From positions 78,201-142,200 of the forward strand of contig JAEUUJ010000059.1 in NCBI GenBank assembly GCA_016786495.1: a stretch of DNA of 64,000 nucleotides. The letters are read 5' to 3'. The position numbers and the translations under genes were made by a program. The notes beneath the pieces were generated by a model. That model was given only the letters and a program-made list of their open reading frames with translations. It was not told the DNA's origin and did not search any database. The DNA comes from Cyclobacteriaceae bacterium. GTDB lineage: Bacteria > Bacteroidota > Bacteroidia > Cytophagales > Cyclobacteriaceae. Position 1 is the first letter of the stretch; each line of letters starts with the position of its first letter. Positions 7,945 to 40,487 of the stretch are shown in pieces.

Positions 7945-7947
7945 AGA

Positions 7948-14846: not shown

Positions 14847-14878
14847 AAGATGATTTTTCGAGTTAAGAGTTAGGTTTA

Positions 14879-16519: not shown

Positions 16520-16547
16520 CGTGGTTGGTTATGGTTAATAGGTAGTG

Positions 16548-23638: not shown

Positions 23639-25069
23639 TTATTGTTTAATGTAAGGGCTTTTGAAGCCAAGTTTCTTAAGTCCGTTTTGAACGTCCGGGA
23701 TTTTCATAAACAGATCCCAGATCAATCCAGAACGGTAGTTTTCAATCATCACCACGATGGGACCCTGATCGATCGCCAGGTGTGATTTTGCATACCAGTT
23801 ATGGGTTTCGCTGAAGCCGTCTACAAAGCCGTATTCACTCCAAATCTTGTCGCCATGGTCGTAATAAAAATGACGCAGGGCTTGCATGGAGTATTCAGGT
23901 GTGTAAGGAAATGATGAGAGTGCAGCGGTTGGCTGAATCACACCAAAATCTTCTGTTGGACTGTGGGCCACATATCCTTTAAAGCTGTCGCCTGCGGTAA
24001 GTCCCCAGCATTTGTCGCTGTAGCCTTTGTATCCCTTCGGATTCCTCACACAATGTTCGCGATTGATGAGCGTGTGGTTTTTATTTTGTTCGAAGTAGTC
24101 GGTCGACCAGTCTTTCAGTCCTCTTGGGTCTATACCCATGAAGGTGTAGTGTGCAAAGAATAAAGGTCCGCCATATTCGAACCCAAGCGGAAGATTGATT
24201 CCGTAGTACGATTTTCCATTGCGATACGTGGCGCTGTTCACCCAGCCGTTGTTGTATACGTCCCAGGCAATACCTTTGTTGGGTGAGGAGGCCGACATGA
24301 TGTACGTGATCAAGCATTCATTCCAGCCGCGAACCGGGAAGTTCATATCCCAATCATTAACCGGGCTCCAGTGCCAGTACAGCATGTTGTTTTCGCCTTT
24401 GCTGTGCCAGTTCCAGTTTGCGGTATACCACAACTGATTCACACGGTTACGGAAATATTTTTCCTGGTCACTGTCGTTATTAAAGTATTCACGCGCGGTG
24501 AGCAACCCCATAAAGAGATAGGAGGTCTCAACAATGTCTGCGCCGTCATCCAATCGTCCGAAGGCAATGGTTTTTCCGGTTTCCCCATTCATGAAGTGCG
24601 GGAAGATTCCATGATAGCTGTCGGCATGCAACAGAAAATCAACCATTTTAATGAGTCGCTTCACTGCAGCATCGCGGCTGATCCACTTGCGTTCAACGGC
24701 AACCACGGTGGCCATGATGCCAAAACCGGTTCCGCCAATCGCACAGGCTTCAGGTCCGTAAGTGCCTTTACTTAAATTGGGCGAGCCATATGCTTCATCG
24801 GCATAGTCCCAGAAATATTCTCCGCGAATCGTGTTGCTGCGCTCACGCGCAAGACCGCTTACCGGGTGGCCGTAATGCCAGAAGTAGCGAAAGGTTTGGC
24901 GCTGCACCACGTCCAATAAAGCCGAGTCCGAAAGGTTCGGAATAATTCCTACCGGCTGGATGAAGTCGGGATCGGCTTTCGGGGTTGCTTTTGTTTTTTG
25001 TGCGATGGATTCGCCCGCGAACATCACGAGAATCAAACAGGCGACAATAATTGAATAGATACGTTTCAT
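23639..25069 (-). CDS. GH144-type endo-beta-1,2-glucanase candidate (paralogue d)
   Basis: A 476-residue protein with a cleavable signal peptide (about residues 1-23, ending ESIAQ) followed by one domain of the Glycoamylase/GH144 family. Blocks shared with its neighbours include QRQTFRYFWHYGHP, GFGIMATVVAVERK, DIVETSYL, WHWSP, NECLITYI, ALSSFPYTPEYS and LAIDQGPIVVMIENYRS. GH144 contains endo-beta-1,2-glucanases and sophorose-releasing exo-enzymes. Unlike its neighbours it has DDGADIVET in place of DNGGDLVET. Signal peptidase I export suggests a periplasmic enzyme. It is the last of the four GH144-type genes, four bases after the preceding one. Family confidence is high; the mode of action is not determined. 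Confidence 0.88.
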   Translation of the reverse strand: MKRIYSIIVACLILVMFAGESIAQKTKATPKADPDFIQPVGIIPNLSDSALLDVVQRQTFRYFWHYGHPVSGLARERSNTIRGEYFWDYADEAYGSPNLSKGTYGPEACAIGGTGFGIMATVVAVERKWISRDAAVKRLIKMVDFLLHADSYHGIFPHFMNGETGKTIAFGRLDDGADIVETSYLFMGLLTAREYFNNDSDQEKYFRNRVNQLWYTANWNWHSKGENNMLYWHWSPVNDWDMNFPVRGWNECLITYIMSASSPNKGIAWDVYNNGWVNSATYRNGKSYYGINLPLGFEYGGPLFFAHYTFMGIDPRGLKDWSTDYFEQNKNHTLINREHCVRNPKGYKGYSDKCWGLTAGDSFKGYVAHSPTEDFGVIQPTAALSSFPYTPEYSMQALRHFYYDHGDKIWSEYGFVDGFSETHNWYAKSHLAIDQGPIVVMIENYRSGLIWDLFMKIPDVQNGLKKLGFKSPYIKQ

Positions 25070-25073
25070 AGAT

Positions 25074-26423
25074 TTATTTCTTTACTTCAAAACCAAGTTT
25101 CTTCAATCCTTCCTGAACTTCGGGGGCTTGCATAAATAACTTCCATAGCATGCCGGTGCGATAGTTTTCAATCATCACAGGAATGGGACCCTGATCGATT
25201 GCGAGATAGCGCGGTAAATACCATTCCTTTGAAAAACTGAAAGCATCATACGGTCCGTACGTACCCACCAGACTGTCGCGCGATGGCGCATAGATGAATT
25301 TCAGAAACTGCATGCTCTCTTTCGGCGTGTATGGGAATGATGAGAGCGCTGCGGTGGGTGAGATCACACCCAAATCTTCTGAAGGTGAATGACCTGCATA
25401 GCCAATCGGTGAATAGCTGGAGGTCAAACCCCAGCAGTCCGGGCCGTAACCTTCGTAACCTTTAGGGTTGTCAACGCAATAACGATATTGAATCAATGCA
25501 TGATTTTGATTGAGCTTCCAGTAATCGGCATAGCGATCGTGAAGGTTGCGGGGATCAAGCCCTAAGTAGGAGTAGTGCGACCAGAACAACGGACCAACCG
25601 GATCATTGTTTCCTTCAAAGTGATCGAGTACGGTCGGGAGATCGTAGAATACGCGATCGGTTTTTATGCTGTCGTTACGCGCCCAGCCCTGGTGATAAAC
25701 TTCCGGTTTAATCGGATGTGTGGGGGAGGCTGCGGCCATCACATAAGTGATCAGGCACTCATTATAACCACCGATCGGGAAGTTCATTTCCCAGTTGTAT
25801 TCGGGCGACCAATGCCAGTACAGCACATTTTGTCCGTGCGTGTACCAGTTCCAGTCAATCTCGCGCCACAGCTTGTCGATTTTTGCAGCAAGCGCCTTCT
25901 CTTTTTCGTTTCCATCTTTGAAATATTCGCGCACCGTAATTAATCCCTGCATCAGGAACGATGTTTCCACGAGGTCGCCACCATTATCTTTTCGGCCAAA
26001 GGGTTTAACCTTGCCGGTAGTTCCTTCAATCCAGTGCGACCACGCGCCATGGAATCGGTCGGCTGTGTCGAGAAAATTCACGATCTGTGTATAGCGGTCA
26101 AGGGCCTGCTCGCGTGTGATAAATCCGCGCTCGATTCCAACCAAAATGGCCATGATTCCGAAACCTGATCCACCGGTAGTAACTACGGTTTGATCATTTT
26201 CCGGGTAGATGTTGTCCATGTGCGTGCGTTCTTTTCCAAGACCGGAAGTTTTTTCTGCATTGTCCCAGAAATACTGGAAGGTTTGGTATTGAACAAGCGT
26301 AAGGAGTGAATCTTCACTGATGGCCAATGTATCATTTGCCGCCAGTGTTAATTCTTGTTTAGGTTGTTTCGAGCACGATGTGCCGATGATTACAATAAGA
26401 ACAAAAAGGAATACGTACCTCAT
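25074..26423 (-). CDS. GH144-type lipoprotein (paralogue c)
   Basis: A 449-residue protein with a lipoprotein signal peptide, lipobox GTSC with Cys17, then a single GH144-type domain. Conserved blocks are VQYQTFQYFWDNA, GLGKERT, GGSGFGIMAILVGIERGFIT, DNGGDLVETSFLMQGLI, WHWSPEYNWEMNFPIGGYNE, ALSSFPYTPKESM and LAIDQGPIPVMIENYR. It is the minimal form, without an accessory domain. Lipidation means either the periplasmic face or the cell surface. Predicted action is hydrolysis of beta-1,2-glucan or its oligosaccharides. The gene stops four bases before the next one starts and follows an 82-base gap containing a GC-rich hairpin. Confidence 0.88.
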   Translation of the reverse strand: MRYVFLFVLIVIIGTSCSKQPKQELTLAANDTLAISEDSLLTLVQYQTFQYFWDNAEKTSGLGKERTHMDNIYPENDQTVVTTGGSGFGIMAILVGIERGFITREQALDRYTQIVNFLDTADRFHGAWSHWIEGTTGKVKPFGRKDNGGDLVETSFLMQGLITVREYFKDGNEKEKALAAKIDKLWREIDWNWYTHGQNVLYWHWSPEYNWEMNFPIGGYNECLITYVMAAASPTHPIKPEVYHQGWARNDSIKTDRVFYDLPTVLDHFEGNNDPVGPLFWSHYSYLGLDPRNLHDRYADYWKLNQNHALIQYRYCVDNPKGYEGYGPDCWGLTSSYSPIGYAGHSPSEDLGVISPTAALSSFPYTPKESMQFLKFIYAPSRDSLVGTYGPYDAFSFSKEWYLPRYLAIDQGPIPVMIENYRTGMLWKLFMQAPEVQEGLKKLGFEVKK

Positions 26424-26505: not shown

Positions 26506-28668
26506 CTAACGCGATGCGCTGATTTTCTTTAACGCTTCCTGAACTTCAGGATTTGCCATGAACAAATCCCACAGCAAGTTGCTGCGGTAATTTTCAATCA
26601 TCACGGTAATGGGAGCCTGATTCAACCCCATATAAATAGGGGAGCACCAGTTGTTGTCTAAGTCGATGGCATCCCGGAATCCGTAATAGCCATACAAGTA
26701 TTTTCCGTAGGTACGGTAATAGTTTTTCAGCGCCCGCATGGAAGCTTCCGGTGTGTACGGAAACGATGCCAGTGCTCCGGTAGCCGTGAGTTTGCCCTTG
26801 TCACCTTTGACGGTTGGTTCATCTGCTGTATAATAAGAAACGCCATCGCTGGCCGTCAGCCCCCAGAAGTCAGCGCCATAGCCCTTATGCTTCAGCGGAT
26901 TTTCGATGCAATAGCGAAGGTTGATTTCAGCGATGCGTTGATTGTTGTCGAAGTAGTTTACATACCGATCGGTGAACTGGTGAGGATTCAGACCGAGAAA
27001 AGAATAGTGTACGAAGAACAACGGCCCGCCATTAGACACACCCACGGGCAGTGCAATTCCGTGATAGGTATTTCCATTGATATAACTAGCTCCGTCCGTT
27101 GTTTGGCCCCAGTTGGTCCGGTAGATGGCTGCTTCCGCAGATTGACTTGCCCATCCCGAATAATACAGCGATGCTGGAACACCATGCGTAGATGACGCGA
27201 TCGCCAGGAAGTACGTGATCATTGTTTCGTTCCAGCCGATCAGCTTGTGATTGATTATCCATTCCTGATCGGGCGACCAGTGCCAAAACAAGAAGTCTGA
27301 ATCGTTGGTACGTCTGTACCAATCCCACTCCACCTCGTTCCAGAGTTTCGTGATGGTGTTTCTGATTTGGGTTTCATTGGCATTGTTGCCGTTGAAAAAT
27401 TGCCGGGCTGCCAGCAGTCCCTGCATGAGAAATGATGTTTCCACCAGATCACCACCGTTGTCGCGTTGACCGAAGAACGGAACAACGTGACCCGTGGTGC
27501 CATCGAGGAAGTGCGGGAACACACCATGAAATCTGTCGGCTTTTGAAAGGAAGGTTGTGATGCGAATAAATCGCTCTGCTGCTTGATCACGCGTAATAAA
27601 ACCTCTTTTCGTTGCGGCAAGGATGGCCATCATTCCGAAACCCGAAGCTCCGGTGGCAATCATGGTCGATCTGCCCGGAATGTTTTCCAATGCAAGTCCG
27701 CTGTTAGACTCACATCCGTCCCAGTAATACCTGAAATTCGACAACTGAACCATGTCAAGCAGTTCATCGTCTGTCATGGAACGGGTAGAAGCAGTAACTA
27801 CATTGGAGAACGCTGTTTCGCGGTAATTCTGATCGATGTGCGTCAGCTTGTAACGAATGGGCGTGGTTTGTGGTCCGGTAAAGTCGCTGTACCCGGCAAT
27901 CTGTGGCGACTGAATGCCAACTGGATTAAAATCTTTTCCGTTCAGCGAGCGATAGATTTTAATATACTTGATCAGTGGGTTCGTTTCTTTTTTCCAGGTA
28001 ATGTCTACATGCTGCTCGTAACCTTTGGCTGAAACCGCCTTCGGAGCATTGTCAATAATCATCGCAATGGTGGCTGCGGGAACCAATTCGACCTGATCGA
28101 TGAAAATTCTCACGTCAGATGTTGATGGTTGATTTTGTGAGAATACAACAACGGCTATTTCTGCCTGATCAACCGGCTTGTCATTCATCATCGCGCTAAG
28201 CGGAATCCGCACACGCGTCCAGTTGGTTGCAGATGACGAAGAAAGATAGTCGCCCAACTTTACTTTTGTGGATTGAGTTGCGCGTTGAGTTGTCAGGTGT
28301 ACGAAGGGCAATGTTTCCGGAGCGGGATTGCCTTCCGTTTTGATCCAGAATGACAACTCATCAGCATCCTGAAAGTGGTCTTTGCCCCGAAGTTCATGAT
28401 GCAGAATTGCGGCCGACCAAAATCCTTCGGATGCTGACCGATAGGAGAGTTCAAGTGAATTGCCGGGTGTGAACGAATTTTCATCCGACACGGGCAGTTT
28501 GTTTTGAATATTTTTTACCCAGCTGTTGCCGGTATATTCCGTCTTGGTGTAATAATAACTGCCGTCCATGAGGCTGTTCTCAAAAAATATCTTCTCGTGC
28601 AATTCCTGAGCATGCACAAGCGATACGAAGAGAAGAAAAGCAGCAATCAGCAGCCTCACGTTTGACAT
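26506..28668 (-). CDS. Multidomain GH144-like protein with CBM-like and FN3 domains (paralogue b, divergent)
   Basis: A 720-residue exported protein: signal peptide (about 1-20), a beta-sandwich carbohydrate-binding-like domain (about 30-195, with FWSAAILHHELRG and WTRVRIPLSAM), a fibronectin III-like domain (about 205-295) and a C-terminal GH144-type domain (about 300-720). The enzyme domain keeps DNGGDLVETSF, WHWSP and WNET, but differs from its paralogues in the first block (GLALENI instead of GLARER), in the region before SFPYTPE, and in the last motif, where LAIDQGP becomes MGLNQAP. It may have altered specificity or act as a binding protein. It follows the fourth paralogue by 20 bases. 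Confidence 0.82.
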   Translation of the reverse strand: MSNVRLLIAAFLLFVSLVHAQELHEKIFFENSLMDGSYYYTKTEYTGNSWVKNIQNKLPVSDENSFTPGNSLELSYRSASEGFWSAAILHHELRGKDHFQDADELSFWIKTEGNPAPETLPFVHLTTQRATQSTKVKLGDYLSSSSATNWTRVRIPLSAMMNDKPVDQAEIAVVVFSQNQPSTSDVRIFIDQVELVPAATIAMIIDNAPKAVSAKGYEQHVDITWKKETNPLIKYIKIYRSLNGKDFNPVGIQSPQIAGYSDFTGPQTTPIRYKLTHIDQNYRETAFSNVVTASTRSMTDDELLDMVQLSNFRYYWDGCESNSGLALENIPGRSTMIATGASGFGMMAILAATKRGFITRDQAAERFIRITTFLSKADRFHGVFPHFLDGTTGHVVPFFGQRDNGGDLVETSFLMQGLLAARQFFNGNNANETQIRNTITKLWNEVEWDWYRRTNDSDFLFWHWSPDQEWIINHKLIGWNETMITYFLAIASSTHGVPASLYYSGWASQSAEAAIYRTNWGQTTDGASYINGNTYHGIALPVGVSNGGPLFFVHYSFLGLNPHQFTDRYVNYFDNNQRIAEINLRYCIENPLKHKGYGADFWGLTASDGVSYYTADEPTVKGDKGKLTATGALASFPYTPEASMRALKNYYRTYGKYLYGYYGFRDAIDLDNNWCSPIYMGLNQAPITVMIENYRSNLLWDLFMANPEVQEALKKISASR

Positions 28669-28688: not shown

Positions 28689-30686
28689 TTAATAATTAAA
28701 CTCAAGCTTGTTCAGGCCGGCCTGCACTTCAGGAGCCGACATAAACAATTCCCACAACAATCCTGTCCGGTAGTTTTCAATCATCACCACGATGGGCCCC
28801 TGATCGATTGCCAGGTATGAATCCGCATACCAGTTTTCGGAAGGGTTAAATGCATCGTAGAAGCCATAGTTGCCCCACAGGCGATCGCCCATCGTATAAT
28901 AGAAGAATTTTAACGCGCGCATCGATTCCTCCGGTGTATAAGGGAACGAAGAAAGTGCCGCGGTAGGAGTGATCACACCCAGATCATTGGTTGGAGAGTG
29001 TGCGTTGTATCCGGATTGATTATCACTGGCCGTTAAGCCCCAGCAGTCGGCACTGTATCCGGGAAATGACTTGGGATTTCGAACGCAGTATTTGTAATTG
29101 ATGATGGAGTGGTTGGTGTTTTGAACCCAGTAGTTTCCATATGCATCACTGAGGTTGCGCGGATCCAATCCCATGAAGGAGTAGTGAGCAAAGAACAGCG
29201 GGCCGCCATAAGCCGATCCAAGCGGCAGGGTCACACCTTCGTACGAACTTCCGTTTTGCATGCCGCCATTACTGGCCCAGCCGGCATCGTACACACTTTT
29301 TGGGATCGTGTTATTGGCAGGAGCTGAAGCAGCAAGTACGTAGGTGATCAAACATTCGTTCCAGCCTTTTATCTGATGATTCATGATCCAGCCTTTGTCG
29401 GTCGACCAGTGCCAGTACAGCACGTTTTGATTATCCTGACGATACCAGTCCCATTCAACAGCCTGCCATAACGTATTGATGCGGGTAATGAGAGCTTGCT
29501 CAGACGGCACACCACTGTCTAAATACTGGCGGAATGTGATAAGTCCCTGTACGAGATAAGCTGTTTCAACGAGGTCACCCCCGTTGTCATTCGCGCTGAA
29601 CGGAATTACATCACCGGTGTTTCCATTGATCCAGTGCGACCATGCTCCGTGAAACCGATCGGTTATTTCCAGATAATCCAGAATTTTATCCATGCGCTGC
29701 AATCCTTCATTGCGTGTGATAAAGTTTCGTTCCATACCTACGATCAGCGCCATAATGCCGAACCCAGAGCCCCCACTTGTGATCAGATCACCGGAGGAGT
29801 TACGTTCGCGTGCCATGCCACTCGCGGGGTGGGCAAAATCGTAGAAGTATTTAAATGTCTGTTTCTGTACCACCGAGAGCAAGTCGTTGGTGTTATCGTT
29901 ATCGCTGTCTTTATCATTCGGAAGCAGCGGCATTTTGGGTGTGTAGTCGATTTCGGAATACAATGTTTTTGAGATGGCTGAAAAACCCTGGCCATCCGCG
30001 CCTTTTAAAGAGGCTGTGATTGAAAATGTGTATTTGCTCAGGTAAGACAAAGGCGCCACGGAAGTTACCGTTGCTGTTCTGTTTTCGTTGGATAGCGCAA
30101 CCTGGAGCGCAGGAGACCCGGGTCCTGATAGTTTGATGGCGCTTGACGTGGTAGTTGGGTTTATGGGCACAGAGAAGTTGATGACTGCTGAGAATGCAAG
30201 CGGCACATCGTACACGCGTGCCGGGATCGTCACGTTTGTTTCTCCTATGGTGATGGAAGTAATGGAAAGACTTCCGAGGGTGGTTTTGAATGCAATGGAT
30301 TGTGCAGTGAACTTCTTTCCGCTGGCGGACTCCAATGCGTCTGACAATTCGATTGTATAAATGGTTCCGTTTTCCAAACTCCCTTCCGGGAAGATGATGA
30401 CGGTTTTGTTGCCGGAGGATAATGTTTTGTTTGTGACGACTTCGGTACCGTCTTGCTTGAGTGTAATACCTTCTGCCACAGAACCGGGCTTGAGACCATC
30501 CGAGAACGTGAGTGAAATGCTTTGGTCTACCGGCAGGCCGGTAGGCATGGGTTCGGTTGGGTCAACTTCCGTGCTTCCGATGAATACGCTTTGTAACGTA
30601 ACGCTGCCAGGATTTTCATCTTCACCGCAACCCGAAATAAACAGGGAAATAAAAAGTACAAGAAAAGAAATGCTTCGTAATGTCAT
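28689..30686 (-). CDS. GH144-type lipoprotein with two Ig-like domains (paralogue a)
   Basis: A 665-residue lipoprotein, lipobox ISGC with Cys20. Two Big_5-type bacterial Ig-like domains follow (about 29-135 and 136-250; ISLTFSDGLKPGSV and AVINFSVPINPTTT mark their starts), then the GH144-type domain (about 268-665) with SGMARERN, GGSGFGIMALIVGMERNFIT, DNGGDLVETAYL, WHWST, NECLITYVLA, ALSSFPYTPEESM and LAIDQGPIVVMIENYR intact. The stalk of Ig domains on a lipidated N-terminus suggests an enzyme displayed away from the outer membrane, perhaps the surface endo-glucanase that starts polymer breakdown. The ATG is 14 bases after a strong hairpin. Confidence 0.88.
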   Translation of the reverse strand: MTLRSISFLVLFISLFISGCGEDENPGSVTLQSVFIGSTEVDPTEPMPTGLPVDQSISLTFSDGLKPGSVAEGITLKQDGTEVVTNKTLSSGNKTVIIFPEGSLENGTIYTIELSDALESASGKKFTAQSIAFKTTLGSLSITSITIGETNVTIPARVYDVPLAFSAVINFSVPINPTTTSSAIKLSGPGSPALQVALSNENRTATVTSVAPLSYLSKYTFSITASLKGADGQGFSAISKTLYSEIDYTPKMPLLPNDKDSDNDNTNDLLSVVQKQTFKYFYDFAHPASGMARERNSSGDLITSGGSGFGIMALIVGMERNFITRNEGLQRMDKILDYLEITDRFHGAWSHWINGNTGDVIPFSANDNGGDLVETAYLVQGLITFRQYLDSGVPSEQALITRINTLWQAVEWDWYRQDNQNVLYWHWSTDKGWIMNHQIKGWNECLITYVLAASAPANNTIPKSVYDAGWASNGGMQNGSSYEGVTLPLGSAYGGPLFFAHYSFMGLDPRNLSDAYGNYWVQNTNHSIINYKYCVRNPKSFPGYSADCWGLTASDNQSGYNAHSPTNDLGVITPTAALSSFPYTPEESMRALKFFYYTMGDRLWGNYGFYDAFNPSENWYADSYLAIDQGPIVVMIENYRTGLLWELFMSAPEVQAGLNKLEFNY

Positions 30687-30774: not shown

Positions 30775-31869
30775 TTAATCTTCATTGTTAATGATGGCTT
30801 GTATTTCAGCCTGAGTCAATGCTTTGTTGAATAAGCGCATTTCATCGTAATTACTCAAATCCGAACGATGAGCCCACTCGAGAAAACGAGGAGCTCCTGA
30901 GGCGATGTTCATAATGTCACATCCGGCCCAATCGATTTTTGACTCATCGACAGGAAACGTACCTGTACTCACAACGTTTCCGTTAATGTAAAGTGTAGCC
31001 CCGGTCGGTGTTATTACAAACGCAATATGAATCCACGTTCCAGGCGTAGCCTTCGCAGTGGCTCCACCGTCAAACCAGCTCTCCTGGGTTCCATTCCCCA
31101 CATTAAGCTTGACTACTTGATTACCTCCAATATTTTCTCTGAATAGCCGCAATCCTTTTGTTCGATTGTTTGGTGCTGTTGGATGCGCGGGGTCCGGAGC
31201 ACTTATAGTGAGAATTCCGGAGCGATCGGGGGTATTATTGCATTTGTACCAAAACACTGCAGAGAAATTATTTGATAGTGTCAGTTTATTGGTCGGGAAT
31301 GTCAAGTAGGCATCGTTCGCGCCTAGATAAGATTTTCCACCAGCAATGAAATCATCTGAAAACTGGGGAATTCCTGACACTATTGCTTTTGTTATGGTAA
31401 CTTGTTCAGTGTAATCTCCATTAAATGGCATATAAAACATTTCTCCATCATAGACCGGATCATATGGTTCCTCTTTTTTGAAGTTGATGCTTTGAGTAGT
31501 TGTTTTACCTGCCCCGTCTACAGCAGTAACTGTTAACTCGTGGTCTCCATTTTCGAGGGTTTCATATGTGTAAGCAGCAATCGCGTTTCGATAATCAATG
31601 AATTTATTAAGTGTAATTAAATCTTCGCCATCAAGGTTGATTGTCACTTCCGCTACTTCAATGTCATCTGACACCTTTACATTGATATCTATCGGTGCAA
31701 TATCCTCCAATACTCGATAAGAAGTGCCTTCGAGTGGATAGTTGAACGTGATCGTCGGAGCCGTTACATCAGCACCTTGCGGGGCTCCCTTAATGTCATC
31801 AATGTAGCCATCCTTGCACCCAAATGCTGCAATCAGCATTCCGATCAAAAGCAATTGTTTTAATTTCAT
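30775..31869 (-). CDS. LamG/concanavalin-type surface glycan-binding lipoprotein
   Basis: A 364-residue lipoprotein, lipobox AFGC with Cys18. Residues about 35-130 form an Ig-like beta-sandwich (ITFNYPLEGTSYRVLEDIAP to ELTVTAVDGAGKTTTQ), and residues about 145-360 a LamG/concanavalin A-like domain (FSAVFWYKCN, GTWIHIAFVITPTGATLYIN, YDEMRLFNKALTQAEI). It lies directly after SusD (21 bases), the usual place of a surface glycan-binding protein in a utilisation locus. It should capture the polymer at the cell surface. No catalytic residues were recognised. Beta-1,2-glucan as ligand is inferred from the enzymes downstream. Confidence 0.82.
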   Translation of the reverse strand: MKLKQLLLIGMLIAAFGCKDGYIDDIKGAPQGADVTAPTITFNYPLEGTSYRVLEDIAPIDINVKVSDDIEVAEVTINLDGEDLITLNKFIDYRNAIAAYTYETLENGDHELTVTAVDGAGKTTTQSINFKKEEPYDPVYDGEMFYMPFNGDYTEQVTITKAIVSGIPQFSDDFIAGGKSYLGANDAYLTFPTNKLTLSNNFSAVFWYKCNNTPDRSGILTISAPDPAHPTAPNNRTKGLRLFRENIGGNQVVKLNVGNGTQESWFDGGATAKATPGTWIHIAFVITPTGATLYINGNVVSTGTFPVDESKIDWAGCDIMNIASGAPRFLEWAHRSDLSNYDEMRLFNKALTQAEIQAIINNED

Positions 31870-31890: not shown

Positions 31891-33435
31891 CTATTGTAGT
31901 TGCGATAAAATATCGGCCTGCTCGGTTGGATAGGGTAAAAACCTGTCAGCCGCTGTATACGTTCGGCGGATATCGTTGAGTTCAGAAGTTTTGTTATGAC
32001 GTACCATATCTTCGAAACGCGTACCCCATTCCATTGCAAGTTCTGCATACTTCTCGTCTAGTACTTGATCGATAGTAACCGCACCCAGAGCGCTTAAGCC
32101 TGCCCGACTTCTAACCAGATTAACAGCCTCAGTAGCCGTCATTTCGGAACTTGATGCCCCCATCGCAACAGCTTCGGCATGCATCAGAAGAACCTGTGCA
32201 TAGCGGATAACACGGAAATTATTTCCTGAACTATATCCTGTACGACCCGGAGTGATTTGATCAGAAGGGAGGTAATGCTTACCACTTGAAAATAGTGCTC
32301 TTGCTTCTTCAGCCCCCGGTCCTGTATTGCCAATGACGTCTCCGCTTAGCGTCTCATTAGAAATATAGGACGGTAAATCTTCGGCTCCGTTCAGTTCTTC
32401 TAAACTATCTATTCCTGCTTGAGTGAACAGTACGCTGGTTACCAACCGATCTTCATCGTCACGATCTATCATAAACTGGATGTACTTAATTGTCGGTTCC
32501 CAAAAACCCCAACCTCCGTTTTCTCCTGGTACAGCCGGTTCAAACTTGTTAGGTCCAAAGAAATCCCACAAGTATCCGTTAGAAGCACCCGAGCCGGTGC
32601 CGTAATCAGAATACTGAAGTTCCAGCAAATTCTCATTATTCAACTTTCCTGGAACCTTAAACAATTGATAGTAATTGGCTTCCAATGAGAATAAATTAGA
32701 TCCAATGATCTCATCAGTCGCATCAGCTACTGCTTGCCAGTTTGAAATTTCCAGATTGGCCCAGGCCTTTACCGCCAATGCAGTGTGTTTCGTTACGCCA
32801 CCAACGATATCAGTTCGTTGGTTCGGACGAAGGTTTGGCAGCAATGGAATTGCCTCATCCATCAAGTCGGAGATGTACTGCATTACCTCCTCATGTGTGC
32901 GCAAGGGTTCGTTGTAGAGATCATCTGATAACGAAGTTTTGGGTATGAGAATATCTCCAAACATGCGCGAAATCTGAAGTAATTCAAAACCATAAAGAAC
33001 CTTGATTTCAGCTTTGTATTGATCGGCAACGGCTGGGTTTGGCGCGAATTCCTTATACTTCTCTATCTCCTCCATGGCACCTAAAAATGTAAACAGATCT
33101 CCATACAGGTTTAGCCATGCAGAATTCGGCATCCAGTCTGATGCTACGTATTTGTATTCATCGGTTGCGATAAGCGGAGCCTGGTCACCAGCGGCATTGA
33201 CATCGTCACCACGAACAGCGATGATCGGGAAAGTCTCCCATTGCAGATCGTAAAACGTTGCATAAGCTCCAATACGATAGTTGTTCATTTGTTCAGTGTC
33301 GGTGTAATCCGTATCACTGCTAAGTTTATTGTTTTCCAGCGGCTCATCGAGATAGCCATCACACGCGGTTAAAAGCAGGAATGCTGCCAAAACCGAGAGA
33401 GTCTTTTTCGTAAGTTTCATGAATTTCATAATCAT
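31891..33435 (-). CDS. SusD/RagB family outer membrane lipoprotein
   Basis: A 514-residue SusD-like protein with lipobox LTAC (Cys25 counted from the first Met; shorter starts at Met3 or Met6 are also possible). The N-terminal CDGYLDEPLENN and C-terminal FRVIRYAQVLLMHAEAVAMG and RFEDMVRHNKTSEL blocks are standard SusD/RagB features, and length is typical (500-550). SusD proteins form the lid of the SusC pore and bind the incoming glycan. The gene follows susC by 20 bases and is certainly co-transcribed with it. Confidence 0.95.
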   Translation of the reverse strand: MIMKFMKLTKKTLSVLAAFLLLTACDGYLDEPLENNKLSSDTDYTDTEQMNNYRIGAYATFYDLQWETFPIIAVRGDDVNAAGDQAPLIATDEYKYVASDWMPNSAWLNLYGDLFTFLGAMEEIEKYKEFAPNPAVADQYKAEIKVLYGFELLQISRMFGDILIPKTSLSDDLYNEPLRTHEEVMQYISDLMDEAIPLLPNLRPNQRTDIVGGVTKHTALAVKAWANLEISNWQAVADATDEIIGSNLFSLEANYYQLFKVPGKLNNENLLELQYSDYGTGSGASNGYLWDFFGPNKFEPAVPGENGGWGFWEPTIKYIQFMIDRDDEDRLVTSVLFTQAGIDSLEELNGAEDLPSYISNETLSGDVIGNTGPGAEEARALFSSGKHYLPSDQITPGRTGYSSGNNFRVIRYAQVLLMHAEAVAMGASSSEMTATEAVNLVRSRAGLSALGAVTIDQVLDEKYAELAMEWGTRFEDMVRHNKTSELNDIRRTYTAADRFLPYPTEQADILSQLQ

Positions 33436-33455: not shown

Positions 33456-36400
33456 CTAGAATTTGACATTTAGTCCCAGTGTATAAACAGCCGGGATCGG
33501 ATAAGTCTGTTCATCGTATCCGTTTGCTACTTCAGGATTAAATCCATTGTAGTTGAATACAGTAACCGGACGCTCAGCGGTAAAGGTTATACGTGTTTCC
33601 GGTACGGCAATTCCCAAAATTTCCTTGTTTGAAAGACGGTACGACAACCGAACGTTCTGGATCCTGAAGTAATTTCCTTTCTCTACGAAGTGATCGCTCA
33701 TCTGCAGGTTCCATGACTTTCTCAAACCGGCAGCAGAGGGGTAACGGTTTGTTGAGCCTTCGCCATCCCAAAGATTGGTGGCGAGTTCGGCATCAATATT
33801 TGCGTCAGGCTGGAAAATCAGCTGACCTCTTTTTCTGTTCAGAATGCTGTTACCAGTTACACCCTGGAAGTTGGCGGTTAACTCAAAACCTTTCCAGGTA
33901 ACACCAAAATTAAAACCATACATAAATTTGGGCATGATTTGGCCAAGTACAACCCGGTCTTTGGAGTCAATTACACCGTCTTTATTCTGATCTTTGAAGC
34001 GGAAGTCACCTGGAACCAATGACTTGTCAGAGATAAATTCTGAAGTGTAGCCACTGTTGTCGATCTCATCCTGATTCTGGAATACACCGTCAACTTCGAA
34101 TCCGTAGAATGCATTTATTGGTTGGCCCGGGATTGAACGCTGAAGGAATTCTGCCATACCGGCATTCAGGTAGCTTTGCCCGCGCAAATTTTGAACTTCA
34201 TTTTTCAAGGTTGTGAAGTTAGCGCCCACGGTGAAGCTGATGTCGGAGGTGATTTTGCCTGCGTAGCTTACAGCACCCTCAAGCCCTGAATTGCGAACTT
34301 CGCCTCCATTTCTGCGAACGATATCACGCTGAGCAGGGAGTACGACAGTCAAAACAAGGTCTTCTGTATCTCTCTGGTAATAGTCGAGATCAACCGTAAG
34401 TGAGTTGTTCAACAATTTTGCAGTTAACCCGAAGTTTGACTCCACAACTGTTTCCCAGCGATCTACGTAGTCATAGGCGTTGTCAATATAAATCCCCTCT
34501 CTGCGCGCCTCGTTAATAGCTAAAGTAATCGACTCGACTGTTCCAGCTCCAATTGCAGGAGCTACCGCATCGTTTCCTAGCTGACCCCAGCTTCCGCGAA
34601 CCTTTAGGAAATTGATTGCCGGAACTTCAAAAAAGTCCTCTTCAGTAACTACCCAACCAGCGCCGATGGTGAAGAAATTACCCCATGTTTTTTGGAATTT
34701 ATTTCCGCCATCACGCCTGTACGTTCCGTAAACGAGGTATCGGTCATCATAGTTATACGCAACGCGGCCAAAGTAAGAAGCGCCGAACAAGCGCCAGCCG
34801 TCATCACCTGAAAGATCGGGATTAATCGAGGCTGGGGTCAGATACCATGTTGATTCTTTCTTGGGATCAAGCGTCAGAATATTGCTTCCTTGAGCAAAGG
34901 ACTCCTCTTTTACTTCGCTGCGGAATGAGAAACCTGCAATTACGCTGATATTGTGACTCCCTAAGGTTTCATTGTACGTTAACACGTTATCTAGAATTTG
35001 GTTCAAGTAGGCAGACGATTTTCGAAGTAATCCGTTTTGCACCGGGTTGTCGTTGTTACCGTTACCGGCATCATAGGCGAAGTCAACGTTGCGTGCAACG
35101 ATGTTTTCGTAGGCGTAATTGTACTGGGATTTGAAGGATAGCTTATTGGGAATGATCTGAAGGTCCGCATAAAAGTTAGCGAGTGTCTTACCAATATTAT
35201 TTCGATCATTGTTGTAATACAGGTTGAAGAACGGATTCTGTGAATTACGGTACCCAAGCGTTCTTGCGTTAGCTAACCTTACAGGAACTGCATCGTTGGT
35301 TTGATCGTAAACGGGCATAATCGGAACAGCGAAATACGCATTCTGCCAAACGCCTGCATCAGCAACAAATTGACGAGCGTTGCTTAGGTTGATGTTTGCA
35401 CCAACGGTCAAACGCTCTGTTGCTTTAAAATCCAATTTCGCTCTGAAGTTTAATCTGCGATACTTGTTCTCGGTAATTTCCAGCAACCCGTCCTGATCAA
35501 AGTAGCTCGCTCCGATTGAATAGCGAACATTGTCCTTACCGCCATTGATGCTCAGGGAGTGGTTCTGAATAGGTGCGGTTCTCAGAATTTCCTTATACCA
35601 GTCTGTATTTGGTTTTGGTACGTTCGGGTTGACGCGACTGCGTCCAAAACGCGCAAAAGCAGCATTGATAAACGTAGCATCCGCAGCCGACCCGCTTGCT
35701 AAAGCATATTCGGTGAACTGCTGAGAGTTAGCCATTTTTACCACATTTTGAGCGCGCTGTACCCCATAATAACCATCATAAACAATTTCTGTTTTCTGGT
35801 TATATGAGCCAGAACGAGTTGTAATTAAAACGACACCGTTCGCAGCACGAACACCATAAATCGCTGCCGCTGAAGCGTCTTTCAATACCGACAGCGTTGC
35901 AATGTCGTTCGGGTTAAGAAAGTCGATATTCGAAAAGAACATACCGTCTACCACATAAAGCGGATCCGAATTTCCCTGCCCAGGCATGGAACCCATACCC
36001 CGAACACGCACCGTGGGGCTTGCACCCGGAGCACCGCTGCTCACGATTTGTACGCCAGGAACTTTTCCCTGCAGCGCCTGCATCGGCTGGCTGGTAGGGG
36101 TCTTGGTCAATTCATCTGTTTTTACGGTTGTAATCGCAGATGTGAGATCTTTCTCCTGCATGGTACCGTAACCTACAATTACCACTTCATCCAATGCCTG
36201 AGCATCGGTTTCCAGTGCTACGTCTACAACCGTGCGGTCGCCAATGTCAACCGTTACCGTCTTGTAGCCAATAAAAGAGAATGTGAGGGAGGTTTCTGCA
36301 GCGGTTAATTGCAGGGTGTACTTCCCTTCGCTGTCGGTAGAAGCGCCCTTGGAGGAGCCAACTACCACGACACTTACCCCCGGCATCGGACCATCCTCCG

Positions 36401-36500
36401 ATGTAACCGTACCGGTGACTGTACGTGTTTGAGCGAACGCCCCGCCTCCGAGAAGAAGAAGCAGGATCGCGAGTGAGAGAAAACGTAAATTTTTGCCCAT
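33456..36500 (-). CDS. SusC/RagA family TonB-linked outer membrane transporter
   Basis: A 1014-residue TonB-dependent transporter: signal peptide (about 1-23, ending GAFAQ), a carboxypeptidase-regulatory-like domain (about 27-105; TVTGTVTSEDGPMPGVSVVV), the plug domain (about 112-230; VIVGYGTMQEKDLTSAITTV, PLYVVDGM, ASAAAIYGVRAANGVVLITT) and a large beta-barrel ending in VYTLGLNVKF. No STN domain precedes the regulatory-like domain, so an anti-sigma signalling role is unlikely. It imports the glycan bound by SusD and the surface binding protein. The 221-base leader upstream holds two symmetrical elements. Confidence 0.96.
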   Translation of the reverse strand: MGKNLRFLSLAILLLLLGGGAFAQTRTVTGTVTSEDGPMPGVSVVVVGSSKGASTDSEGKYTLQLTAAETSLTFSFIGYKTVTVDIGDRTVVDVALETDAQALDEVVIVGYGTMQEKDLTSAITTVKTDELTKTPTSQPMQALQGKVPGVQIVSSGAPGASPTVRVRGMGSMPGQGNSDPLYVVDGMFFSNIDFLNPNDIATLSVLKDASAAAIYGVRAANGVVLITTRSGSYNQKTEIVYDGYYGVQRAQNVVKMANSQQFTEYALASGSAADATFINAAFARFGRSRVNPNVPKPNTDWYKEILRTAPIQNHSLSINGGKDNVRYSIGASYFDQDGLLEITENKYRRLNFRAKLDFKATERLTVGANINLSNARQFVADAGVWQNAYFAVPIMPVYDQTNDAVPVRLANARTLGYRNSQNPFFNLYYNNDRNNIGKTLANFYADLQIIPNKLSFKSQYNYAYENIVARNVDFAYDAGNGNNDNPVQNGLLRKSSAYLNQILDNVLTYNETLGSHNISVIAGFSFRSEVKEESFAQGSNILTLDPKKESTWYLTPASINPDLSGDDGWRLFGASYFGRVAYNYDDRYLVYGTYRRDGGNKFQKTWGNFFTIGAGWVVTEEDFFEVPAINFLKVRGSWGQLGNDAVAPAIGAGTVESITLAINEARREGIYIDNAYDYVDRWETVVESNFGLTAKLLNNSLTVDLDYYQRDTEDLVLTVVLPAQRDIVRRNGGEVRNSGLEGAVSYAGKITSDISFTVGANFTTLKNEVQNLRGQSYLNAGMAEFLQRSIPGQPINAFYGFEVDGVFQNQDEIDNSGYTSEFISDKSLVPGDFRFKDQNKDGVIDSKDRVVLGQIMPKFMYGFNFGVTWKGFELTANFQGVTGNSILNRKRGQLIFQPDANIDAELATNLWDGEGSTNRYPSAAGLRKSWNLQMSDHFVEKGNYFRIQNVRLSYRLSNKEILGIAVPETRITFTAERPVTVFNYNGFNPEVANGYDEQTYPIPAVYTLGLNVKF

Positions 36501-36721
36501 AGATATTTTAGGTTTAAGTGACTAATTTCATAAAATCCAAAAACGAAGTAAATTTTTTCAGGCAGTAACCTCAATTTTAGGGCTCTAAAAAGGAGATTTG
36601 AGCGGGATTTTTTTACCTGAAAAAAACATGGATTTCAAACGTTATTCCTCCATGTTTGCGGCAAGCTATTAAGAATTTACCTTGAAAAAAACATTTTGTC
36701 GGAAACGTTTCCAAAAGGGTG
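36501..36721 (-). promoter_or_regulatory. Upstream region of the SusC gene with inverted repeat and palindrome
   Basis: This gap lies between the stop of the regulator gene and the SusC start. Two elements are visible: an inverted repeat AAACATGGA (36624-36632) and TCCATGTTT (36649-36657) with a 16-base spacer, and the perfect palindrome GGAAACGTTTCC (36701-36712). The spacer also contains CAAACGTTA, sharing the AAACGTT core of the palindrome. GGAAACGTTTCC resembles CG-centred LacI-type operators, but with flanking TTTTG/CAAAA and a following run of T on the minus strand it could instead terminate the regulator gene. No exact TAnnTTTG box was found. Confidence 0.45.
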
Positions 36722-38623
36722 TTATTTGGAATCGTTTGCGGTGGTAAACCTCATTTTTGGCTTAATTTGGGCATTTTCGAGAATCACCTCTTCCCACCGT
36801 GACGCAGTTGGCTTGTGGCCCTTTTGCTCCAGCTCTTTAACGCGCTCCTGGACCTTCGTACGGAACGACCAGACGGTATTTGTGCCCAAATCCATCTGGT
36901 AGGCGAGTTCTTCCAGGGTACTTTCGCGCTTTCCCGTCACTGCCAGGTAGGCCAGGTAAAACGCTTTTTCGATCGGGAATTTGATGCTGTGGAAGATCGT
37001 AAAGGCCGTGATCGACTCGTTATACCCGCAGCGGGTGCAACGTCTGGAAAACTTCTGAGAACCCTCGAAATACTTCTGATTTCCGCATTTCCGGCACTGA
37101 AACCCATGATCCCACTTGAGATTTTCAATAAAGCGGTAGCATGACAGGGAGTCGGGGTAAAGGGTCTTAAATTGGCCATAATCCATGGTTTTTTCCATCA
37201 AATGGTCGGTGAGCACCTCCTTGAGCCGGTTTTTCAACTTCCAGTTGTCGAGGTCGAGCATGGAGTTTATCTGGTTGATTTCCAGTGCCTGCTGCTCCAG
37301 TTTGTGGTTCGACTCCTCGAACTCATGGTTTTTGCGGTTTAATTCTTCGGTTCGTTCGCGCACTTTCTCCTCGAGTTCCTTATTCACCTTGTCTTTCAGC
37401 TGCATGTTGAACTCGTGCTGATGAATGATCCGTTTGAGCGCCCGGTCACGATTGTCTTTCAGGATGCGGATTCTGTCGCCCAACGCGAATGTGAGAAACA
37501 GCATCTCCAGGGTAAAGCTGAGGTGAAGGCTGTAGTGCGAAATGATGGTGAACGGCAGCACGTTCAGGTACACCAGCATCCGGATGAAGAATCCTGAAAA
37601 CAGAATTCCATACGCAATGACGAAGAAGCGGGCGGGGCGGTAGCCTTTGTACCACACCACAATACCGGTGTAAAAGATAAGCGACAGCGGAAGAATCTCG
37701 AGATTCCGGTAGGAGAACAATTCCTGATGAAATAACAATGCAAACACGAACAAGGCGGTACGCACAATAATCGTCCACTTCAAAAGCTTATCCAGAAAGG
37801 ATGCATTAGCCCTTGAGCTTAAGAATCGCCGGGTAAATACCAAGGCCCATAAAATCAGCGAGTAGAGCGCAACGCCAACCGCCACGTTATTCCATTCGGG
37901 ATGGTTGGGCCAAATGTATTGAAAACCAACACCATCCAGGCTCATCGCATACAGGGCAACACTCAGCATGTAGAAAATGTAGTAGATGTATTTCATCTCG
38001 CGGATCGCCAGAAATACCAGGAAATTGTACAGGATGATGATGAGCACCATGCCGTAGAAGGTTCCGTACAGGAAGTATTCGTTGAGAACGTAGTAAATGA
38101 ACCGGTCAACCGTACGAAAGGCAATGCGAATGTCTGCAAAATCATGTGACTGCACCTTGAAGTAGTAATACACGGTGGTGTCGCCATGATTCGGAATCTG
38201 CACTTCGAAATTCTTGTGCATGAACATCCGTTGCCGGAACGGGTATTGGTCGCCCGTGATCACCTGGCGGTAGCCACCCTGCGTTTGCGGAACGTAAGCT
38301 TCCAGGTGGTCGATCGTTTGATCGTAAAATTCAAAAATCCATGTGTTCTGGGTGCGGGAACTGTACAACACGGGCATCCGTATCCAGTACGCAGCACCCG
38401 ACTGAAAATCGGCATTCAGGTACGAGTCGTGGCGCAGGAAACTCCTGGCGAATGAAGGGGAGGAGGCGGTGGTAATATCCAGCGTGTCGTGCGGATCGAT
38501 CAGGTACGTAAGCTCTGTGAGGGTAAAAATGTGCTCGTTTACCTGGTCGTCAACTACGGCTATTTGTGCCGTTACGGATAACCAGCAACATGTGAAAAGA
38601 ATTGAAAGTGTAATCGATCTCAT
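36722..38623 (-). CDS. 7TM-DISM receptor fused to an IS1595-type zinc-ribbon/HTH DNA-binding region
   Basis: With the start at 38623, which begins a clear signal peptide (residues 1-20, ending TAQ), the protein has 633 residues; a longer frame to 38710 is less likely. Order: signal peptide; DISMED2-like periplasmic sensor (about 25-165); seven membrane helices (about 185-385); coiled coil (about 390-475); an IS1595 transposase-type N-terminal region with YPDSLSCYRFIENLKW (489-504), zinc ligands C510, C513, C529, C532, and an HTH-like helical part (about 548-598, LEELAYQMDLGTNTVW). No DDE nuclease domain or space for one exists. Position directly upstream of susC suggests a membrane-bound regulator of the locus that senses a periplasmic ligand. 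Activity is inferred. Confidence 0.85.
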   Translation of the reverse strand: MRSITLSILFTCCWLSVTAQIAVVDDQVNEHIFTLTELTYLIDPHDTLDITTASSPSFARSFLRHDSYLNADFQSGAAYWIRMPVLYSSRTQNTWIFEFYDQTIDHLEAYVPQTQGGYRQVITGDQYPFRQRMFMHKNFEVQIPNHGDTTVYYYFKVQSHDFADIRIAFRTVDRFIYYVLNEYFLYGTFYGMVLIIILYNFLVFLAIREMKYIYYIFYMLSVALYAMSLDGVGFQYIWPNHPEWNNVAVGVALYSLILWALVFTRRFLSSRANASFLDKLLKWTIIVRTALFVFALLFHQELFSYRNLEILPLSLIFYTGIVVWYKGYRPARFFVIAYGILFSGFFIRMLVYLNVLPFTIISHYSLHLSFTLEMLFLTFALGDRIRILKDNRDRALKRIIHQHEFNMQLKDKVNKELEEKVRERTEELNRKNHEFEESNHKLEQQALEINQINSMLDLDNWKLKNRLKEVLTDHLMEKTMDYGQFKTLYPDSLSCYRFIENLKWDHGFQCRKCGNQKYFEGSQKFSRRCTRCGYNESITAFTIFHSIKFPIEKAFYLAYLAVTGKRESTLEELAYQMDLGTNTVWSFRTKVQERVKELEQKGHKPTASRWEEVILENAQIKPKMRFTTANDSK

Positions 38624-38743
38624 CACGACCCGGAATAAAAATGAAATATACAAAAACGAATTAAGTCCAGAGGGGGAAAGAGTGCTGTCACGAATTTGCA
38701 TTACTTTCATGGGAAGTTAATCTTACAACTAGAGTTGATTGAT

Positions 38744-39349
38744 GTGAATACCCTCATTTTCGACCTCGGTGGTGTCATCGTTGACCTCGCACCCGAACGT
38801 ACACTGGAAGCGTTTGCACAGTTGTCGGGTAAGCCGGCCAGTGAGGTGTTAAAGATAAACGCAACTAACCCCGCGTTTCATGCATTTGAAACCGGGCAGA
38901 TCAGCGCGATGGACTTTCGGAATGCAGTGCGAAATACGTTACATGTTCAGGCCGGTGACGCAGAAATCGATCGCTGCTGGAATGCCATGCTCTTGGGTAT
39001 TCCGGATAGAAAGCTTGACATGCTCATGCGTTTGAGAAAACACTTCACAACCATCGCGTTGAGCAACACGAATTCCATACACCTTTCGTACATCAATGAA
39101 GTGATTCTGAAAGGGCAGCGCCTGGACGACTATTTTCATCATGCGCATTATTCTCATGACCTCGGTTTGCGGAAGCCTGACCCTGCGATTTATGAACTTG
39201 TCTTGCAGATGCACCAGCTAAGCCCTGAGAACGCATTTTTTTTAGACGATAACGCTGACAATATTGCAGCCGCAACGGGTGTGGGGATGCAGGCGGTACT
39301 CATTCGGCATCCCGATGAGGTTATCGAATTATTCAGGAACTATGCGTAG
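38744..39349 (+). CDS. HAD-superfamily phosphatase, YihX-like
   Basis: A haloacid dehalogenase-type hydrolase. Motif I is IFDLGGVIVDL right at the N-terminus, motif II LSNTNS, motif III LRKPDP and motif IV FLDDNADN. The second Asp of motif I is Gly, as in YihX-like sugar phosphatases. No ATG precedes the first motif; I chose GTG at 38744 (201 residues, reading MNTLIFDLGG), but TTG at 38735 or 38696 would also fit. The gene is divergent from the receptor-regulator with a 120-base gap and overlaps the next gene by eight bases. Cytoplasmic phosphatase with unknown sugar-phosphate or related substrate. Confidence 0.85.
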   Translation: MNTLIFDLGGVIVDLAPERTLEAFAQLSGKPASEVLKINATNPAFHAFETGQISAMDFRNAVRNTLHVQAGDAEIDRCWNAMLLGIPDRKLDMLMRLRKHFTTIALSNTNSIHLSYINEVILKGQRLDDYFHHAHYSHDLGLRKPDPAIYELVLQMHQLSPENAFFLDDNADNIAAATGVGMQAVLIRHPDEVIELFRNYA

Positions 39350-40487
39350 CGAACAGAAGCGGATTCTCACTCAGGTTTTACTTTTCATTGCAACTTTGTT
39401 TACCACTACGCTTGCCGGGGCAGAATGGTGCCACGGAAAGGTATTTATCTCGTTGTTTCCGTTCCTCTATAACCCCGACTTTACCTTCAATGATTTTTTA
39501 CTTGGAATGCAGTTTTCGGTACCGTTCCTGCTCATTCTAACCGTACACGAATTCGGGCATTATTTTACTGCCATGTATCATAAGGTTAAAGCGTCATTGC
39601 CCTACTACATTCCGGTTCCTCCTATGCTTTTGTCGATCGGTACCATGGGTGCGGTAATCCGCCTGCGCAGCAAAGTGCCCTCGACCCGGAAGAACTTCGA
39701 CATCGGAATTGCCGGCCCGTTAGCCGGATTTATCATTGCGTTGGGTGTTTTGTATTACGGGTTCTCTACACTGCCACCCGCGGAACATATTTTCACTATC
39801 CATCCCGAATACAAACAATACGGGTTGAATTATGCCGACCATGTTTATAACCCCAACGACACAACGATCATCAATATTACCTTAGGGAAGAGTCTGCTGC
39901 TGATGGCGTTCGAGCATGTGGCGGCAGATCCGGCTCGTGTACCCAACATGCACGAGATGATGCATTATCCGTTTCTGTTTGCAGGCTTTCTAGCCCTGGT
40001 ATTTACGAGTCTGAATTTACTTCCCATTGGCCAGCTTGACGGGGGTCATGTGCTGTACGGTTTTCTGGGATATAAGAGGCACAAAATTGTGGCGTCTGTG
40101 TTTTTCGTGGCATTGATCTTTTATGCCGGACTAGGACTTGAATGGATCAGCTTACGTCAGCCTGCGGATGTGCTGATGATAAGCATTCCGTTGTACGGAT
40201 TATTTCTGTACGCGTGTTTCACAGGCCTCGGCCTTTCACAACGTGACACCATCATGTATGCGCTCGCGGTGTTTGCGGGCCAGTATCTGATCATGTTCTT
40301 ATTTCCAACCGTGAACGGCTATTCGGGCTGGCTGTTGTTTGGATTTGTTATCGGAAGATTTGTGGGTATCGCCCATCCGCCAACGGAAATTGAAGAACCA
40401 CTGGACTTAAAGCGACAAATTTTAGGATGGATCGCGCTCGTAATTCTTGTCGTGAGTTTTACACCGCAACCTGTCAATTTCCCGTAA
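39342..40487 (+). CDS. M50 site-2 protease-like membrane metalloprotease
   Basis: A 381-residue polytopic protein. The zinc motif HEFGH (HExxH) is at residues 69-73 inside a membrane helix, and the third-ligand motif LDGGH is at 232-236; GIAGPLAGF (122-130) is another M50 block. About six to eight membrane segments are visible. I took ATG 39342, which overlaps the HAD stop and removes 26 non-homologous residues of the longer frame. Related proteins cleave membrane-embedded substrates such as anti-sigma factors. Its 3' end overlaps the convergent gene at 40474 by 14 bases. The substrate is not evident. Confidence 0.88.
   Translation: MRSEQKRILTQVLLFIATLFTTTLAGAEWCHGKVFISLFPFLYNPDFTFNDFLLGMQFSVPFLLILTVHEFGHYFTAMYHKVKASLPYYIPVPPMLLSIGTMGAVIRLRSKVPSTRKNFDIGIAGPLAGFIIALGVLYYGFSTLPPAEHIFTIHPEYKQYGLNYADHVYNPNDTTIINITLGKSLLLMAFEHVAADPARVPNMHEMMHYPFLFAGFLALVFTSLNLLPIGQLDGGHVLYGFLGYKRHKIVASVFFVALIFYAGLGLEWISLRQPADVLMISIPLYGLFLYACFTGLGLSQRDTIMYALAVFAGQYLIMFLFPTVNGYSGWLLFGFVIGRFVGIAHPPTEIEEPLDLKRQILGWIALVILVVSFTPQPVNFP

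Follow-up and report, generated by a model that had tools for sequence, protein, structure and literature searches.

Membrane-tethered one-component regulators such as ToxR and CadC possess a single transmembrane segment and a winged helix, and HTCS use sensors of the Reg_prop/Y_Y_Y type. The regulator types named in a 2013 Bacteroides study are SusR-like proteins, HTCS and ECF pairs; in the available text of that study, HTCS control SusCD loci and the operators of SusR are predicted to be direct repeats placed 67 or 77 bp apart (PMC3878776). According to the available part of a review on hemicellulase regulation, the systems commonly used are HTCS, ECF regulators and carbon catabolite repression (PMC10766802). 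The direct fusion of a 7TMR-DISM receptor to a DNA-binding domain has a precedent in the available text of a paper on the ChiS-family DNA-binding domain (PMC8092284).

The window analyzed here (the whole stretch of DNA, 64,000 nucleotides) possesses a regulator gene, REG (36722-38710, minus strand), which joins a DISMED2 sensor, seven transmembrane helices (7TM), a coiled coil and an IS1595-type zinc ribbon followed by a helix-turn-helix (HTH). Like SusR, the product is predicted to sit in the membrane, to sense in the periplasm and to carry a C-terminal DNA-binding part in the cytoplasm, and its gene is placed by susCD. The predicted operators are also alike, with two direct repeats at a long fixed spacing, 64-66 bp in REG clades A and B and 67 or 77 bp in SusR according to the available text (PMC3878776). 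These tandem sites make SusR a closer working parallel than ToxR and CadC, which had been proposed in the preliminary description; REG shares with the latter the membrane-tethered one-component logic but has another receptor and DNA-binding module, and Pfam found no OmpR-type winged helix in it. The SusR-like candidates, picked by position beside sus-type operons and not by name, are however DUF6377 proteins; they are 531-556 aa long and gave no DISM or zinc-ribbon match. Profile comparison of such a candidate with the output module of REG gave a probability of 6.9% over 25 HTH columns. As REG also has no DUF6377-type body with its C-terminal HTH, its membership in the SusR family was rejected, and the best reading of the sequence is that REG would be SusR-like by mechanism and not by membership.

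Reg_prop/Y_Y_Y sensors are also carried by two relatives of the REG output module, which recalls HTCS, but the histidine kinase, receiver and AraC domains of HTCS are absent from REG by Pfam and the assignment to this class was rejected on that ground. Proteins with the ChiS-family domain resemble REG in joining a 7TMR-DISM receptor to a C-terminal DNA-binding domain; this domain belongs to a different family, reported in proteobacterial genomes, and a link with SusCD is not stated in the available text (PMC8092284). Transposases of the IS1595 family (ISXO2-like) share the zinc ribbon and the HTH-like stretch but bear a DDE nuclease, whereas REG is without nuclease and adds a receptor. REG as an intact IS1595 transposase was rejected, since no DDE nuclease match was given by Pfam. 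The preliminary description regarded the protein as an undescribed class. This stands for the transposase-derived module and its PUL family, of which no description was found among the titles and abstract starts listed for open-licence PMC papers, a description elsewhere being possible; it does not stand for the fusion of 7TMR-DISM with a DNA-binding domain, for which the available text of the ChiS-family paper gives the precedent (PMC8092284).

Domain organization and predicted structure of REG

The REG open reading frame encodes 662 aa when counted from its first ATG. The true start is likely at 38623, giving 633 aa, because the nearest homologues (L098 and L129) align only from residue 29. 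The 662-aa numbering is used throughout; the ribbon cysteines at 510, 513, 529 and 532 of the shorter protein correspond to 539, 542, 558 and 561. Residues 66-196 (38123-38515) form a 7TMR-DISMED2 periplasmic sensor (Pfam E 1.4e-25, with Foldseek in agreement) and residues 211-413 (37472-38080) a 7TMR-DISM_7TM domain (Pfam E 9e-46), which is seen as seven long helices in the AlphaFold model. The DISMED extracellular domain and the following 7TM part, both present by Pfam and model, place the protein in the 7TMR-DISM group. The whole model has a mean pLDDT of 83.7. In it a helix spans residues 389-506, so that the long helix or coiled coil of residues 416-506 (37193-37465) extends the last transmembrane helix; its end, 488-506, has pLDDT under 50. 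The top PDB match of the whole model by Foldseek is human WLS (E 6e-5), presumably covering the 7TM part. The periplasmic domain of RetS was also matched (2xbz, E 8e-5; 3jyb, E 1.5e-4), and carbohydrate-binding modules more weakly, as in the beta-sandwich of CBM61 (2xon, E 2e-3).

The zinc ribbon (Zn_ribbon_IS1595, PF12760) was identified by Pfam and alignment at residues 523-563 (37022-37144) with E 3e-7 and 30.7 bits, above the cut-off of 25.4; the REG paralogue of the same genome reaches 21.9 bits, below this cut-off. The HTH helices follow at residues 580-629 (36824-36973) and, by the models and NCBIfam, equal the part of IS1595 transposases that precedes the DDE domain. The NCBIfam IS1595 transposase model matches residues 577-628 with E 4e-4 and 20.4 bits against a cut-off of 75, and judging from the match of the free transposase L095 this region would correspond to the stretch before the nuclease. 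REG therefore appears to have retained the two DNA-binding parts of the transposase and to end at the point where its nuclease would start. The DDE nuclease PF12762 was absent from REG at a maximum E of 10, and about 30 residues remain past the HTH. Pfam reported no family of the DDE, histidine-kinase, receiver or HTH kind at this threshold, at which most very weak matches are discarded by the HMMER filters.

AlphaFold modelled residues 511-640 as a zinc ribbon with a three-helix HTH at pLDDT mostly 70-89, and residues 503-630 folded alone reached a mean pLDDT of 88.3. The helices after the ribbon (580-592, 599-606 and 610-629) stand in the order of an HTH. Comparison of the ribbon-HTH model with PDB folds gave nothing at E<=0.001 (best E 0.8), which was counted against the activator reading set out below, and the best match of its profile to PDB sequences was only E 0.048. 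The domain architecture that the preliminary description had read from the sequence, with a DISMED2-like sensor, seven membrane helices, a coiled coil and an IS1595 zinc ribbon with HTH but no DDE nuclease, was thus confirmed, as Pfam, AlphaFold and NCBIfam agree on it.

Conservation and relatives of the ribbon-HTH module

All four ribbon cysteines are invariant in the 58 full-length proteins aligned, REG of the window included. Purifying selection acts on the ribbon-HTH in each of the five pairs that were compared (dN/dS 0 to 0.11); between the window and its two nearest relatives dN is 0.015 and 0.022, with dS saturated and 1.58. The retention of the cysteines in 58 proteins together with this selection argues that the fusion is not a chance one.

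The family-level search gave matches in 117 of 148 genomes, including DISM proteins which match the receptor part alone. With the ribbon-HTH profile, matches were obtained in 119 of 291 genomes at the level of the order and in 53 of 395 at that of the phylum, transposases included. Among the matches listed for the order (E down to 1.2e-43), all but 13 lie in open frames of 594-792 aa, and many of the weaker ones listed for the phylum are in frames of transposase size, with about 300 aa. A domain tree was constructed from 134 stretches, reduced to 98 rows by removing stretches under 96 aa and rows at least 85% identical. It placed 77 DISM proteins and two other fusions on one branch (support 98/84) without any nuclease-bearing row, in a tree of few columns and midpoint root. 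The two other fusions, L248 (997 aa) and L249 (1068 aa), carry the ribbon-HTH on Reg_prop/Y_Y_Y sensors. L249 pairs with a DISM protein (97/87) and is followed by susC and then susD; the placement of L248 within the fusion group is unresolved in the tree, and neither SusC/D nor a tested GH is encoded within five genes of it. A second full REG paralogue, L078, is present in the same genome as the window (G000:C50:76162-78027; 38% identity), with a PKD protein, susC, susD and GH30 downstream.

Free-standing IS1595-type copies were also found. L095 and L097 show 39-40% identity to the C-terminal part of REG; L095 scores above the NCBIfam IS1595 cut-off, and L097 is flanked by a 21-nt inverted repeat that is 86% complementary. 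The transposase L266 has a DDE nuclease match of E 2.5e-28 by Pfam. One genome (G567) possesses ten IS1595-like open frames of about 306-339 aa, such as L252 (4995-5936) and L265 (4359-5300). The one frame scanned had a DDE match of 21.9 against a Pfam cut-off of 27, the surroundings of two of the ten copies showed no clear element ends, and the copies are possibly another domesticated group. Free-standing zinc ribbon-HTH proteins of 137 and 185 aa without a receptor are encoded in L268 (1197-1607) and L267 (4888-5442); of the two, L268 was scanned and gave no nuclease match.

The glucan locus and the gene context of REG

In the window, REG is followed after 221 bp by susC in the same orientation, the position directly before susC that the preliminary description had stated. 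All genes of the locus are on the minus strand: susC, a TonB-dependent receptor (33456-36500), susD (31891-33435), a LamG/Big_7 protein which is a probable surface glycan-binding protein (30775-31869), four PF10091 (GH144-type) proteins (28689-30686, with Big_5; 26506-28668; 25074-26423; 23639-25069), a GFO/IDH/MocA oxidoreductase (22457-23617), a GH3 glycosidase (20084-22408) and a sodium:solute symporter (18362-20050). The locus holds four of the five PF10091 matches of the genome, a family which we take to be the GH144 endo-beta-1,2-glucanases. According to the available text of one paper, GH144 was founded on Chitinophaga pinensis CpSGL (PMC12102758). No ECF sigma/anti-sigma pair was found by Pfam beside susC among the 14 main open frames of 18362-42462. 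Elsewhere in the window, five genes in two groups (6610-9582 and 13512-18188) look TldD/TldE-type (PmbA)-like by eye, and an M50-type membrane protease gene (39264-40487) is situated near REG on the opposite strand.

The neighbours of homologues follow the same pattern. In 71 of 80 named loci (the best 80 of 541) the next same-strand gene is susC, open frames under 130 aa being skipped in the naming; susC is within three genes in one further locus, two are at a contig edge and six differ. The named and unnamed loci partly share genomes. Among the six, L106 is near a contig end, and in L149, L152, L154, L168 and L175 REG is not directly before susC without any contig edge, which was counted against the activator reading; in L168 susC is the fourth gene after REG. 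Among 20 control DISM proteins of the same family without the ribbon, none is followed by susC and one has it within four genes. SusC/D or one of nine GH families was present no more than five genes away at all 57 family-level loci, at 21 of the 33 wider loci and at 2 of the 20 control loci, all hand-chosen by the analyst from the search lists and with all GH queries taken from REG loci, which favours REG over the controls. The other 12 wider loci, with no SusC/D or tested GH within five genes and with the Reg_prop fusion L248 among them, were counted against the activator reading; the neighbours scanned at these loci were, among others, a DUF2339 protein (L238), a patatin (L242), a subtilase (L246) and, at L245, a TPR kinase. 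The glycan loci of divergent relatives are varied. L078-L081 (38% identity) are at SusCD and GH30 loci, and xylan loci are also represented, with GH10 or GH115 within five genes in eight of nine relatives near 30% identity (L084-L092). Further relatives are at GH9, GH16 or GH2 loci.

The interpretation of REG as regulator of the glucan locus, given in the preliminary description, is supported, as the zinc-ribbon profile match, the association of homologues with SusCD and glycan loci and the predicted ribbon-HTH structure favoured it. The stretch 36501-36721, which had been proposed as the target, contains a conserved tandem operator-like pair.

Operator-like double site upstream of susC

This 221-bp interval contains two direct copies of TGTTTTT-N5-G-N2-A, 65 bp apart on the minus strand. 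Site 1 (AAATGTTTTTTTCAAGGTAAAT) is at 36675-36696 and site 2 (CCATGTTTTTTTCAGGTAAAAA) at 36610-36631, beginning 128 bp ahead of the susC start. A looser pattern of the pair has a single match in the window, where 0.04 would be expected, and two in the 4.0-Mb genome, of which the second lies inside a kinase-like coding frame, by eye of LytS type. The interval is identical to those of the two nearest relatives at 197 and 198 of 221 positions. This high identity despite a dS of the REG genes from 0.7 to saturated, depending on the domain, was counted in favour of the activator reading.

For comparison across loci, duplicates and near-duplicates were removed from the intergenic set (108 to 77) and REG-susC intervals of at least 1200 bp were dropped. 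An anchored matrix, with the core TG[TA]TTT fixed by the anchor, superseded an EM motif which had shifted register on the T run. The anchored pair was present in 36 of 46 non-redundant close-clade loci, with a spacing of 64 bp in one, 65 bp in 15 and 66 bp in 20. Outside the anchor, G at +12 is found in 26 (site 1) and 31 (site 2) of the 36 loci, and A at +15 in all 36 at both sites. When a model was trained on half of the loci, it recovered the spaced pair in 15 of the 23 loci held out and in 0 of 30 shuffles of the set (threshold 8), in a test not fully blind, as the seed and the spacing range were taken from viewing all loci. The same model gave no pair enrichment in 31 distant loci (two at threshold 6, one at threshold 8). 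With the anchored matrix, built without these distant loci, the best two sites were 63-66 bp apart in 15 of the 31, against a mean of 0.80 and a maximum of 4 in 300 shuffles and 2 on the reverse strand. The distant enrichment was seen only with this ranking test, which was counted against the activator reading.

Motif-free self-matching gave best spacings of 66/65 bp in clade A (48 loci) and 64/65 bp in clade B (29 loci). There was no clear 64-66 bp peak in the f13 clade (12 loci; best 88 bp, 68 bp third) or in ten loci of other clades (best 42 bp, 67 bp third, 65 bp fourth). In the f13 clade, a pair of TTGTTTTTTA-like and TAAGYG patterns lies 74-77 bp apart in 14 of 16 loci; as patterns chosen by eye in one genus, they are only a lead to a possible operator.

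A strict pattern of the pair was found at 13 places in 148 genomes, with 0 matches for a backward-pattern control. Twelve of these lie between REG and susC, and the 13th (G137) is before a gene of 382 aa; the 18 kb around this place contain neither SusC/D nor REG nor a tested GH. The strict pattern is specific but insensitive, as its 12 REG loci are fewer than the genomes with a full-length REG and most REG loci are missed. When the best pair was sought over the entire locus, a strict rule placed it in the REG-susC interval in 46 of the 55 close loci, in 20 of the 40 distant ones and in one of the 16 paralogue loci. Four of the nine close misses are inside small open frames called in the interval (L044, L047, L131, L145), and the others are L126 (before a small open frame), L040, L106 and L132 (contig ends) and L108. 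No full or good pair was found in L108, which was counted against the activator reading. In L040, where REG and susC are separated by a gene of 255 aa, the pair is found immediately upstream of susC; in L066 and L067 the two genes are divergent and the pair is oriented towards susC. These rearranged loci show that the pair belongs with susC. Its resemblance to the inverted repeat of L097 was too weak to claim a relation between the operator and the ends of free-standing IS1595 copies.

Two further sequence features were noted. A perfect palindrome, GGAAACGTTTCC, is situated at 36701-36712 just past the REG stop codon and is conserved in the two near relatives. In L169 a second spaced pair (16877-16962, score 13.8) between a 437-aa gene and a GH144-type gene suggests an internal target.

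Proposed mode of action and alternative explanations

We infer with good confidence that REG acts as a membrane-tethered one-component transcription activator of the adjacent glucan PUL through a transposase-derived DNA-binding module. The periplasmic beta-sandwich would bind a glucan-derived oligosaccharide, and the signal would pass via the seven helices and the long signalling helix, which may pair two subunits. The cytoplasmic zinc ribbon and HTH would then occupy the two direct-repeat sites, which lie upstream of susC at a distance of about six helical turns from each other, and REG bound there would recruit RNA polymerase to the susC operon. No phosphorelay would be involved, because kinase and receiver domains are absent. 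The output module probably descended from the DNA-binding end of an IS1595-type transposase. The same module would serve relatives at other glycan loci and appears to have moved onto Reg_prop/Y_Y_Y sensors.

REG may instead regulate the locus as a repressor, or its main targets may be its own promoter and other genes; the double site would then be used by another factor, for example RNA polymerase or a global regulator. The double site is known from conservation, which suits a repressor as well as an activator, and a start of site 2 at 128 bp before susC suits several arrangements; the footprint could also belong to another regulator which shares these promoters. A global factor would be expected to have its site at many promoters, and it counts against this that the strict pair is nearly specific to REG-susC intervals, where 12 of its 13 matches in 148 genomes fall. 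This reading as a whole is considered improbable, but it is the one to be taken most seriously beside the activator. The operator-like sites before the adjacent susC also argue against a zinc ribbon-HTH which has lost DNA binding and become a dimerization or protein-contact domain, the receptor signalling through a partner. Such a role would agree with the lack of a significant PDB match for the module, but the strong constraint on the four cysteines and HTH positions and the occurrence of this module as the C-terminal end of two Reg_prop/Y_Y_Y sensors make it quite unlikely.

Much of the synteny lies inside one bacterial family and could be vertical, so an old transposase-receptor fusion may have been inherited along with the locus without any control over it. 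Against such hitch-hiking, paralogues are placed by different glycan loci (GH144, GH30, xylan, GH9, GH16), the 20 DISM receptors without the ribbon are mostly not at glycan loci, and the divergent arrangement retains both neighbourhood and operator. Inheritance of this kind is hardly credible as an explanation.

Returning to REG as an activator, the evidence tips slightly towards a broader proposal, that a single IS1595-type capture gave rise to a large family of glycan regulators tethered to the membrane, most of them in Cytophagales, which fill the role that HTCS and SusR have elsewhere. This module would have moved between sensor types, and the spacing of its direct-repeat operator would shift by whole helical turns, to about 65 or 76 bp, a geometry as predicted for the unrelated SusR. 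Precise operator predictions follow for named cultured species, such as Ohtaekwangia koreensis and Chryseolinea lacunae. If true, the family would be a further class of PUL regulators beside the HTCS, SusR and ECF types and could explain the switching of loci which have none of these beside them. It would also represent a clear bacterial case in which the DNA-binding domain of a transposase was recruited as the output of a membrane receptor.
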